A stretch of 45,602 bases of DNA, taken from Deltaproteobacteria bacterium. Lineage in GTDB: Bacteria; Desulfobacterota; Syntrophia; Syntrophales; JACQWR01. A program made the translations under genes and the position numbers. Position 1 is the stretch's first letter. The number at the start of each line of letters is the position of its first letter. Location: assembly GCA_026388415.1 (NCBI GenBank), contig JAPLJV010000005.1, forward strand, positions 1-45,602, written 5' to 3'. The notes under the pieces are model-generated. The model was given only the letters and a program-made list of their open reading frames with translations, was not told the DNA's origin and did not search any database. Of this stretch, positions 30,790 through 33,861 are shown one piece after another.

Positions 30790-31632
30790 CTACTGCTCCA
30801 CAAGTTCCACACGTCGGTTCTTAGCCTTTCCTTCTTCTGTTTTATTTGAGGTTATGGGGCACAGCGAACTAACACCGTATGCCTTAAGCCTTGATGAGGC
30901 TATTCCATATTTCGATCCGAGCGAATTGGCTACGGCGACTGCGCGATCACTTGAGAGCTTCATGTTGGCGGCGAATGATCCTGTGTTATCAGTATGACCG
31001 ACGACATGAAGCGTAAGCGCGTTGTTGTTTCTTAGAAGTTTGGCAATTTCGGCAATCGCAGCGTCTGATTCTGGCTTTATCTCTGCTTTGCCTGTGTCGA
31101 AGTGTATGCCGTATACAGAGACATGACCCGTCCTCTTGATATCGTTGCCCATCGCCTCGGCATTTGCCTCGACCACCTGTTCCATAACTGCTCTTTCAAC
31201 AATGGTAAGTCTGTACAAGGTTGGCCAAGCTGATACCGCCACCCATGTTTCTTTTCCCTCATTCTCCAACTTGATAGTTGCACTCCAGGGGCGTTCGCCT
31301 TCAAACAGGACCTTCCCCCCAATCTTGGTGAGAGCGTTTTCAATGTTCCTGACTACCTTGAGATCTCCGGGTTCCTTCGCGCCCTGATTGAGGTCATATT
31401 GGAAGTAGTACTTGTGGCCTTCCACGGCGATCCTGGAGATCTTCTTGCCGTCTTGGACGAGGAATTCGTGCCTGTCGAAATCCTTGTCACTGTAGGATCC
31501 GATGCGGAAATCCGGCATCCGCGTCAGCAGCGGGTGATCTGTGCTCCCTTTTACGTCTTGTGCCGCCACGGAAATTTGCGCGCCGGCTAACACAAACCAC
31601 ATGCAAAGAGTTGCAGTAAGAATCTTGCTCAT
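30790..31632 (-). CDS. OmpA-family outer-membrane/periplasmic protein
   Basis: A 280-residue protein with a signal peptide (MSKILTATLCMWFVLAGAQI, cleavage likely after SVAA). A middle domain of about 130 residues is not recognised with certainty (resembles DUF4892-like domains). The C-terminal OmpA peptidoglycan-binding domain (about 175-280) shows IHFDTGKAEIKPES, LHVVGHTDNTGS, LSSDRAVAVANSL and AKNRRVELV. The Asp and Arg that bind diaminopimelate are in place (HTDN and NRRV). No cysteine lipobox, so it is probably a soluble periplasmic protein. AAGGAGG lies seven bases before the ATG. It is convergent with the YgiQ gene. Confidence 0.88.
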   Translation of the reverse strand: MSKILTATLCMWFVLAGAQISVAAQDVKGSTDHPLLTRMPDFRIGSYSDKDFDRHEFLVQDGKKISRIAVEGHKYYFQYDLNQGAKEPGDLKVVRNIENALTKIGGKVLFEGERPWSATIKLENEGKETWVAVSAWPTLYRLTIVERAVMEQVVEANAEAMGNDIKRTGHVSVYGIHFDTGKAEIKPESDAAIAEIAKLLRNNNALTLHVVGHTDNTGSFAANMKLSSDRAVAVANSLGSKYGIASSRLKAYGVSSLCPITSNKTEEGKAKNRRVELVEQ

Positions 31633-31925: not shown

Positions 31926-32726
31926 CTACCCTCTCTTGAACCAGTGCCGGCGATTGTGTTCTTTGAACGCCGCCTCCAGGGTGTCCAGCTTCTTGGGCAG
32001 CAGAATGCCTCGTTCGATGAAGTAGTTGCCAATGCGGGGCTGGCGGATTTTCTGGCGGCCCAGTAGTACCAGAACTTGATAAGGGCTCAAACATCCCGTG
32101 CGCAGCGCGAACTCGCCAAAGAGCTCCCCGCGCTTCCGCTGCCGCAGGATGTTTTGAATATCAAGCGGGCTTAGCCAGCTCAGTTGGCAGGCAATATCGC
32201 CGAGGCGCGGCCGCTGAATCCTCTGCCAGACGATGGCGTCCCACATCTGCCGCAGGGAAATAACTCTGGAATAATAAAGAAACTGGCCGATGAAGATTCT
32301 GCGGGAGGGTATCTCCCCCTGGTAGAAATGCTGGCGTTGGGGAGGCGGAGGTTTGGTTATGGGGCGATCAAAACGATATAAAGACCCCGGCGGCATTGTC
32401 AGAATGTAGCGATCCGGTTCCTGGATGTACGAAAAGACCTGTTCGTAGGCGCGATTGACCTCTTTGAAGCGCTCCGCCAGAATCGCTTCCGGCACGCCGG
32501 TATGATACGCCCGATCCGGGTGCGTGACCATGACCAGCTTGCGATACGCCGTCTTCACCCCGGCCGGTCGCAGGTAGTCGAGAAATTGCGGCGTAATTTT
32601 CGCTTCCGGGCCAAAAAGAATCCGGCACGACTGGAGGAGCTGCTTTTCCGGAAGGACGATCCGGGTATTTCTGCCGTCTGTATTCGTGTCCGGTCTCCCT
32701 TTACCTATCTGGTCATGGCAAACCAC
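31926..32726 (-). CDS. J-domain protein with four MshEN-like 24-residue repeats
   Basis: A 266-residue protein. A J domain covers about residues 35-100 with the HPD signature at 69-71 (VTHPDRAYH), so it should stimulate a DnaK-type ATPase. After a Pro-rich linker (PITKPPPPQ) come four similar units starting near 145, 174, 202 and 231: FIGQFLYYSRVISLRQMWDA, RLGDIACQLSWLSPLDIQNI, LFGEFALRTGCLSPYQVLVL and RIGNYFIERGILLPKKLDTL. The pattern (R)xG at 1-3, G near 10, LS at 12-13, L/I at 17 and 21 and Q near 24 resembles the c-di-GMP-binding MshEN motif of GspE/PilB-type ATPases. It starts with GTG at 32726 after GAGG. No signal peptide. Confidence 0.8.
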   Translation of the reverse strand: MVCHDQIGKGRPDTNTDGRNTRIVLPEKQLLQSCRILFGPEAKITPQFLDYLRPAGVKTAYRKLVMVTHPDRAYHTGVPEAILAERFKEVNRAYEQVFSYIQEPDRYILTMPPGSLYRFDRPITKPPPPQRQHFYQGEIPSRRIFIGQFLYYSRVISLRQMWDAIVWQRIQRPRLGDIACQLSWLSPLDIQNILRQRKRGELFGEFALRTGCLSPYQVLVLLGRQKIRQPRIGNYFIERGILLPKKLDTLEAAFKEHNRRHWFKRG

Positions 32727-33018: not shown

Positions 33019-33861
33019 TTGTCACTCGACGTCATGGCAATCGTGTTATTTGCCGCCGCACTTCATGCCGGTTGGAATGCGCTTGTTCGCGCGTCTGCTG
33101 AGAAATTTCAGGATACCGTCTTGATTGTTCTCGGTGCGGGCGTCTGGACAGCGTTCTTATTGCCGTTAGCTCCCCTTCCCGCCGTCGCAAGCTGGCCGTA
33201 TTTGGCGGCGTCGGTATTGATACATATCGCCTATTTTTCCCTCGTCGCGTTTTCGTACCGAAGCGGCGAACTGAGTTTCGTGTATCCGCTGATGAGAGGC
33301 TCCGCGCCGGCGCTGTCCGCAGTTGCCGCCGCGCTTTTGATCAATGAATCGCCTTCGCCGGGCGGATGGGCAGGCATTCTCCTCATTTCTTGCGGCGTAC
33401 TTGTTCTGGCTGGCGACTCGTTACGTTCCGGGACATTTAGGGCCGCGCCCGCCCTGTTCGCACTGACCAACGCCGGCGTCATTGTTGTTTACACTCTCGT
33501 AGATGGTCAAGGGGCGCGACTTTCCGGGCATGCATTCAGTTACACGGGCTGGATGTTCCTGTTGACCGCCCCACTGTTGTTAACCATTTCAGCAGCAGGC
33601 CGGGGCCGGGAGGTATTTCAGCGTATCCAGTCCGGTTGGGGCAGGGGCTTGCTCGGGGGCGCCTGCACCCTGGCCTCGTACGGGCTGGCACTTTGGGCAA
33701 TGACGCACGCGCCTATCGCCCTGGTCGCGGCGCTCCGCGAAACGTCGGTGGTTTTTGCCGCGATCATTGCGGCCTATTGCCTGAAAGAGCCGATTACCTT
33801 GCTCAGGTACGCATCAATATTCACAGTGACTGCGGGCGCCATCGTAATGAAGGTGTTCTAA
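33019..33861 (+). CDS. EamA/DMT-superfamily transporter
   Basis: A 280-residue protein with ten membrane helices in two homologous EamA halves. The first half includes ALHAGWNALVRASAEKF and ends with SPSPGGWAGILLISCGVLVLAG; the second ends with EPITLLRYASIFTVTAGAIV. The Glu-Pro after the eighth/ninth helix region (LKEPITLL) is typical of the family. It starts with TTG at 33019 with AGAGG upstream. Substrates of this superfamily are amino acids, metabolites or drugs and cannot be predicted here. It is convergent with the LarA-like gene. Confidence 0.88.
   Translation: MSLDVMAIVLFAAALHAGWNALVRASAEKFQDTVLIVLGAGVWTAFLLPLAPLPAVASWPYLAASVLIHIAYFSLVAFSYRSGELSFVYPLMRGSAPALSAVAAALLINESPSPGGWAGILLISCGVLVLAGDSLRSGTFRAAPALFALTNAGVIVVYTLVDGQGARLSGHAFSYTGWMFLLTAPLLLTISAAGRGREVFQRIQSGWGRGLLGGACTLASYGLALWAMTHAPIALVAALRETSVVFAAIIAAYCLKEPITLLRYASIFTVTAGAIVMKVF

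Follow-up and report, generated by a model that had tools for sequence, protein, structure and literature searches.

The 45,602-nucleotide stretch of deltaproteobacterial DNA analysed here (the window) encodes a J-domain protein whose C-terminal half consists of four MshEN-type units, and this J-MshEN architecture is conserved in a whole family of proteins and can be regarded as established. The kinship of the four-unit tetrad with MshEN is evident from the sequence and from the predicted fold. As the best explanation, to which we would give almost an even chance, the protein may be a class C J-protein that recruits DnaK under the control of c-di-GMP, bound in a pocket of units II and III of the tetrad, and the idea of ligand binding is a reasonable one.

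Many synthases of c-di-GMP are known and few receptors, and the targeting of one DnaK to particular machines in bacteria is poorly understood. A conserved J-protein with a c-di-GMP-type module would directly wire c-di-GMP to DnaK, in sulfate reducers as well as in syntrophs and anammox bacteria, and it would also reveal a four-unit form of MshEN with the middle two units as ligand pair, which would change the way in which such proteins are read from their sequences. Fusions of PilZ to DnaK or DnaJ and an action of DnaK at pilus motors are known already. In Myxococcus, CsdK1 and CsdK2 are PilZ-DnaK chaperones (PMC10313047), and four PilZ proteins of M. xanthus carry a DnaK or DnaJ domain (PMC8316039). 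CsdK1, CsdK2 and these other PilZ proteins resemble the protein described here in that a component of the DnaK/DnaJ machinery is coupled to a c-di-GMP receptor domain (a putative one in our case), but that domain is PilZ and not MshEN. In Nostoc punctiforme, DnaK1 and DnaJ3 act at type IV pilus motors (PMC9239167), which is again a specialised J-protein together with a DnaK, with the difference that the consulted parts of that report mention no nucleotide-sensing domain. No paper on a J-MshEN fusion was found in the open-licence part of PMC.

The gene, its start codon and the J domain

The mechanical open reading frame of the J-MshEN gene (31926-32726, minus strand) comprises 266 amino acids when counted from a GTG at 32726, which is probably not the true start. 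The likeliest extent of the gene is 31926..32687 on the minus strand, that is 253 codons plus the stop codon, with translation probably beginning at a conserved ACG at 32685-32687 and resulting in a product of 253 amino acids. As the window sequence itself keeps the in-frame GTG upstream of the ACG, this assignment rests on the relatives. The closest of these come from Syntrophus and from unclassified deltaproteobacterial MAGs and share about 85% identity, and all four of them (L021-L024) have an in-frame stop five codons 5' of the ACG and no ATG, GTG or TTG between this stop and codon 53, which lies already within the J domain. Their ACG is aligned with the ATG of the sister sequences L025-L028, and it is preceded, at a distance of six bases, by a Shine-Dalgarno-like element of the AAAGGGGA type, the window version of which is AAAGGGAGA. 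The lack of a usual start in these four relatives, the alignment of ACG with ATG and the spacing to the AAAGGGGA-type element together make the ACG start probable. Among 78 relatives checked, the lack of any usual start upstream of the J domain was found in these four, all belonging to the window's own clade, apart from L047, which runs off its contig. Whole-gene dN/dS ratios among the window gene and L021-L024 are about 0.11-0.25 (NG86); in the pairs that include L024, a length difference of one codon was left unaligned.

The J domain, including an N-terminal extension, covers residues 28-103 (32418..32645, minus strand). Pfam PF00226 (DnaJ), the sole Pfam domain found, matches residues 57-95 with 28.7 bits at a cut-off of 27.8 and is detected in 79 of 79 members of the family at E 0.01, all 83 members of the alignment have the HPD signature (H69-P70-D71; 32514..32522, minus strand), and the predicted model matches J-domain folds in VIA with Z up to 6.8. 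J-proteins of class C share the J domain with classical DnaJ, but lack its G/F, zinc-finger and DnaJ_C regions. As the Pfam scan of the window protein gave DnaJ alone, with no zinc-finger and no DnaJ_C substrate domain, the protein does not qualify for class A or B and is most likely a class C, i.e. specialised, J-domain protein. A single full-length DnaK is encoded in the genome as a potential partner (PF00012, 912 bits), next to four J-domain matches, the window protein included. The J domain is followed by a Pro-rich linker (residues 104-136; 32319..32417, minus strand), the length of which varies in the family, as seen from gaps in the alignment, and which coincides with low model confidence, the pLDDT being below 50 at model residues 94-106.

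Four MshEN-type units and their predicted pairing

The C-terminal half contains four units of 24 residues each, separated by spacers of 5, 4 and 5 residues (266-aa numbering; all coordinates on the minus strand). Unit I (residues 145-168; 32223..32294; FIG...Q) has no Arg at position 1 and a Gln at position 24, unit II (residues 174-197; 32136..32207; RLG...R) has an Arg that replaces the Gln at position 24, unit III (residues 202-225; 32052..32123; LFG...Q) has the Gln at position 24, and unit IV (residues 231-254; 31965..32036; RIG...F) has no Gln at that position. The unit length and the plan (R)LG...G...L...L..Q are those of the MshEN domain of Vibrio cholerae MshE (5HTL; PMC5013675). Unlike MshE, the window protein has four units instead of two, a spacer of four residues between units II and III, an Arg in place of one pocket Gln, no MshEN_C subdomain, and a J domain as partner instead of an ATPase.

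The NCBIfam model NF053729 (cyclic di-GMP-binding domain-containing protein, MshE-related) recognises the protein in two stretches with 42.7 bits at a cut-off of 38 (E 3.5e-11), and in a six-frame search with the same model the unit pairs singly reached 30.0 and 18.1 bits, each below the cut-off. The consensus score of the tetrad, whose weights were chosen after the published consensus and the window sequence had been seen, is 50.5, and 2000 shuffles of the same residues averaged 25.1 (sd 1.9) and reached at most 34.5. The Pfam model for MshEN, PF05157, has no match in the window protein and, at E 0.01, in none of the 79 members searched, whereas two ATPases are recognised by it, namely L114 and the L045 neighbour of a family member. 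The earlier note, made from the sequence, had claimed an intact HPD-type J domain and four MshEN-like units of about 24 residues, and both claims hold, the former by PF00226 above cut-off and the invariant HPD, the latter by NF053729 above cut-off and by shuffles none of which scored as well. The search with MshEN profiles that it had proposed as a check was positive with NF053729 and negative with PF05157. That it took the four units as equal has to be corrected, as the motif is incomplete in units I and IV, and it is units II and III that make up the MshE-like bundle in the predicted models.

AlphaFold predicted eight helices arranged as four pairs, with a pLDDT of 88.2 and a pTM of 0.51 for the whole protein and, in a separate job, 92.9 and 0.75 for the repeat half alone. 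In VIA, c-di-GMP-bound MshE (5HTL) was the top match of the whole-protein model (1.2 Å over 57 residues, residues 171-227) and of the repeat-half model (1.7 Å over 59 residues, residues 170-228), in both cases with a Z of 10.6, which is below the value of about 13 under which VIA advises caution with helical bundles. Crystal structures of PilF GSPII-B came next (Z 9.3-9.9), all placed on units II and III, and with the repeat half the first seven entries were MshE or PilF, none of them extending beyond model residues 32-92, before an unrelated row followed at a Z of 2.0. A structure prediction of the repeat half had been suggested as a further check before, and with 5HTL in first place its outcome agrees with MshEN. 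Also in Foldseek, 10 of 12 chains were MshE or PilF GSPII-B with a probability of up to 0.99, yet the best E was 1.6, and the Foldseek E-values for the MshEN fold are not significant.

The predicted ligand bundle, as aligned to 5HTL in the two models, consists of units II and III (32052..32207, minus strand). The alternative pairing of I with II and of III with IV, as marked by the two NF053729 stretches (residues 146-196; 31983-32120), is disfavoured, since both models place 5HTL and PilF GSPII-B on units II and III. An independent hint for units II and III as ligand pair may be seen in six tetrads that are fused to CheX. In these, position 24 is Gln in unit II (6/6) and in unit III (6/6), position 1 is Lys or Arg in unit II (5/6) and unit III (6/6), unit I has no Arg or Lys at position 1, and unit IV has neither this nor the Gln, with the limitation that unit II mostly has a His at position 21 and is thus imperfect too. 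The strictly kept Gln24 of unit I is left unexplained by such a pairing, and as this invariant Gln lies outside of the bundle of units II and III, Gln conservation alone is no proof of ligand binding.

Distribution of the family and conservation of the putative pocket

A scan of named genomes yielded 414 pattern matches, of which 197 were confirmed as relatives and 80 kept. The relatives belong mostly to Desulfobacterota, and the cultured Desulfobacter vibrioformis (L068) is one of the carriers, but they are found also in Scalindua and Kuenenia (anammox Planctomycetota), in one Nitrospirae MAG and in one Pontiellaceae MAG. In the order of the window, 16 of 60 genomes have matches at E 0.001, and 13 of these 16 hold both halves (by manual reading of the rows; one split over two contigs), and in the phylum, matches at 1e-10 occur in 56 of 297 genomes, with a single match across both halves in 30. 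Seven Planctomycetota sequences form one group (support 100/98) amid Desulfobacterota in a midpoint-rooted tree of 74 rows, in which many of the rows labelled 'Myxococcota' are titled merely 'Deltaproteobacteria'.

Conservation was assessed with 83 non-identical ORFs of at least 220 bits, selected from 99 ORF hits by leaving out the fragments L029, L017, L005 and L043, the tetrad-only sequences L014 and L015, and exact duplicates. NF053729 was found in 79 of 79 members at E 0.001. In unit I, G3 and Q24 are both invariant (83/83 each), and Arg or Lys at position 1 occurs in 4 of 83 members. Unit II likewise has G3 in all 83, and its position 24 is Arg in 74, Lys in 4, Cys in 2, His in 2, Ser in 1 and Gln in none. 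Unit III has Q24 in 83 of 83 and at position 3 Gly in 74, Cys in 7 and Ala in 2, and in unit IV G3 is kept in 82 and Q24 in 22 of 83. Covariation analysis by APC-corrected mutual information over 79 rows (effective number 54) made no unit pair prominent, and the signal was taken as phylogenetic noise.

In MshE, the guanine is contacted by the residue at position 1 through stacking and, at its Hoogsteen edge, by Gly3 together with the amide that follows it; a hydrophobic triangle is made up of positions 2, 17 and 21, and the contact to phosphate and ribose comes from Gln24 (PMC5013675). Units II and III of the window protein have Gly at position 3 and hydrophobic residues at positions 2, 17 and 21 in both units, and 11 of 12 contact positions are acceptable if Leu is permitted at position 1, the one miss being R197. 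The Leu that unit III has at position 1 occurs also in GSPII-B of Thermus thermophilus PilF, where Leu or Lys at this position is compatible with c-di-GMP binding at 6 nM (PMC11731258). Due to R197 in unit II, Gln24 is present in one of the two paired units only, and of the alternative pairs, I+II has the same R197 defect and III+IV has Phe at 254. An Arg at a Gln position is known also from GSPII-A of PilF, a domain without c-di-GMP binding in which the two Gln positions are occupied by His and Arg; measurable binding needed both Gln restored plus other changes, other features of GSPII-A also block binding, and PilF, unlike the window protein, is an ATPase (PMC12002112). As this non-binding domain also has an Arg at a Gln position, c-di-GMP binding by the window tetrad is plausible but uncertain. 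In the family, the Gln-24 miss is the single departure of units II and III in 22 of 83 members, two or more departures are present in 61 of 83, and the critical Gly of unit III is Cys or Ala in 9 of 83; judged from these numbers of misses, binding is plausible for the window clade and doubtful for some other members.

Proposed function, genomic context and related proteins

For the preferred reading, we infer that the HPD J domain would stimulate the cell's DnaK and that the four helix-turn-helix units of MshEN type in the C-terminal half would pack into a compact tetrad, in which units II and III would constitute the four-helix bundle that holds one c-di-GMP in MshE and PilF, flanked by units I and IV. 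A ligand at units II and III may alter the tetrad itself or the degree to which a partner can reach it, and this change would then decide when or where DnaK meets its client, for which a machine of the envelope, of pili or of polysaccharide is plausible. The tetrad would thus be the sensor and docking part, and the J-protein would bring DnaK to the client. Widened to the family, the idea would be one of widespread second-messenger-gated Hsp70 co-chaperones, in which an asymmetric Gln/Arg pocket of units II and III for c-di-GMP (or cGAMP) switches the J domain so that the dinucleotide places DnaK, with an ACG start in the Syntrophus clade; in this wide form we regard it as tentative and somewhat on the improbable side.

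It is rather doubtful, but a serious option, that the tetrad has lost its nucleotide binding and is now a docking or dimerisation scaffold that would steer DnaK to a fixed client, such as an MshEN-bearing pilus or secretion ATPase. The Gln-to-Arg change in unit II is fixed, the pocket has two or more departures in the 61 members mentioned, with GSPII-A there is a documented non-binding MshEN relative that has Arg at one Gln position (PMC12002112), and the genome encodes two further proteins above the NF053729 cut-off, one of which (L101) reads as an ATPase, all of which would fit such a scaffold, but the pocket Gly and the Gln of unit III are retained (G3 of unit II and Q24 of unit III without exception), and the retained residues have a published role in ligand contact (PMC5013675). 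Unlikely is a different ligand, for which the asymmetric Gln/Arg pocket might be suited, namely a dinucleotide that is itself asymmetric or linear, with 3',3'-cGAMP and pGpG as examples. In every member, units II and III offer one Gln half-site and one non-Gln half-site, mostly with Arg, MshEN binds cGAMP weakly (KD 3.3e-4 M; PMC5013675) and cGAMP signalling is reported for Geobacter (PMC8835794), but most members have, in each of the two half-sites, the features described as selecting guanine, i.e. the Gly with the backbone amide after it (PMC5013675). That the likeness of the C-terminal half to MshEN is due to chance, in a helical repeat of unrelated origin, as the weak Foldseek E-values and the missing PF05157 match could suggest, is very improbable in view of NF053729 being above its curated cut-off and present in all members searched, of the 2000 inferior shuffles, and of MshEN structures coming first in both VIA and Foldseek.

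The window gene stands alone, with an OmpA-family gene (30790-31632) on the same strand and an EamA transporter gene (33019-33861) on the opposite strand, and the genome has ten GGDEF matches above cut-off. Out of 81 sources, with the window counted as one, gene calling recovered a family gene in 70. Recurring neighbours are lineage-bound: Desulfobulbaceae-type loci share an M48 peptidase-TPR protein, and Scalindua-type loci one -1 neighbour. Besides these, signalling proteins of a mixed group occur near family genes at varied positions, and no gene neighbour, c-di-GMP or pilus types included, is conserved across lineages in the family loci compared. No Rfam match, and with it no c-di-GMP riboswitch, was found in the window or in any of the 11 family loci searched out of the 80. 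Out of ten neighbour proteins run through Pfam, one is a GAF-MshEN-T2SSE ATPase, encoded immediately 5' of a family member (L045:3437-5737, plus strand). Of the earlier interpretation, the fusion of a J domain to a set of four MshEN-type units is supported by profile, predicted fold and conserved architecture, and the suggested link to pilus or secretion machines, with one MshEN ATPase in ten neighbours and no neighbour conserved across lineages, lacks consistent genomic support. In another locus, a further small J-domain protein is encoded immediately 5' of a family member (L058:5345-5899, plus strand).

Among the J domains compared, the closest to the one of the window protein is that of L106-L109, with 43.7-52.2 bits in comparison to 24.4-35.4 bits for the three other J-proteins of the genome. 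Together with L122-L129, these form a second J-protein family, which has an extended J domain of the same type and a MinD/ParA-type P-loop ATPase where the window protein has the tetrad; one of them, L124, has HPA instead of HPD. CheX phosphatase-like proteins with a four-unit MshEN tetrad are L111/L121, L112, L115/L119, L118, L120 and L113. The window protein resembles those of L112 and L118-L121, and more weakly that of L113, in the four-unit layout with a unit I without Arg and a unit IV without Gln, and they differ from it by their CheX output domain and by the Gln that is kept in both unit II and unit III. A T2SSE-type ATPase (L114:2-2320, minus strand) has, as judged by eye, about eight successive MshEN-like units at its N-terminus, and small stand-alone MshEN-tetrad proteins of about 160 amino acids are encoded in the same phylum (L116:979-1464 and L117:1194-1664, both on the minus strand).
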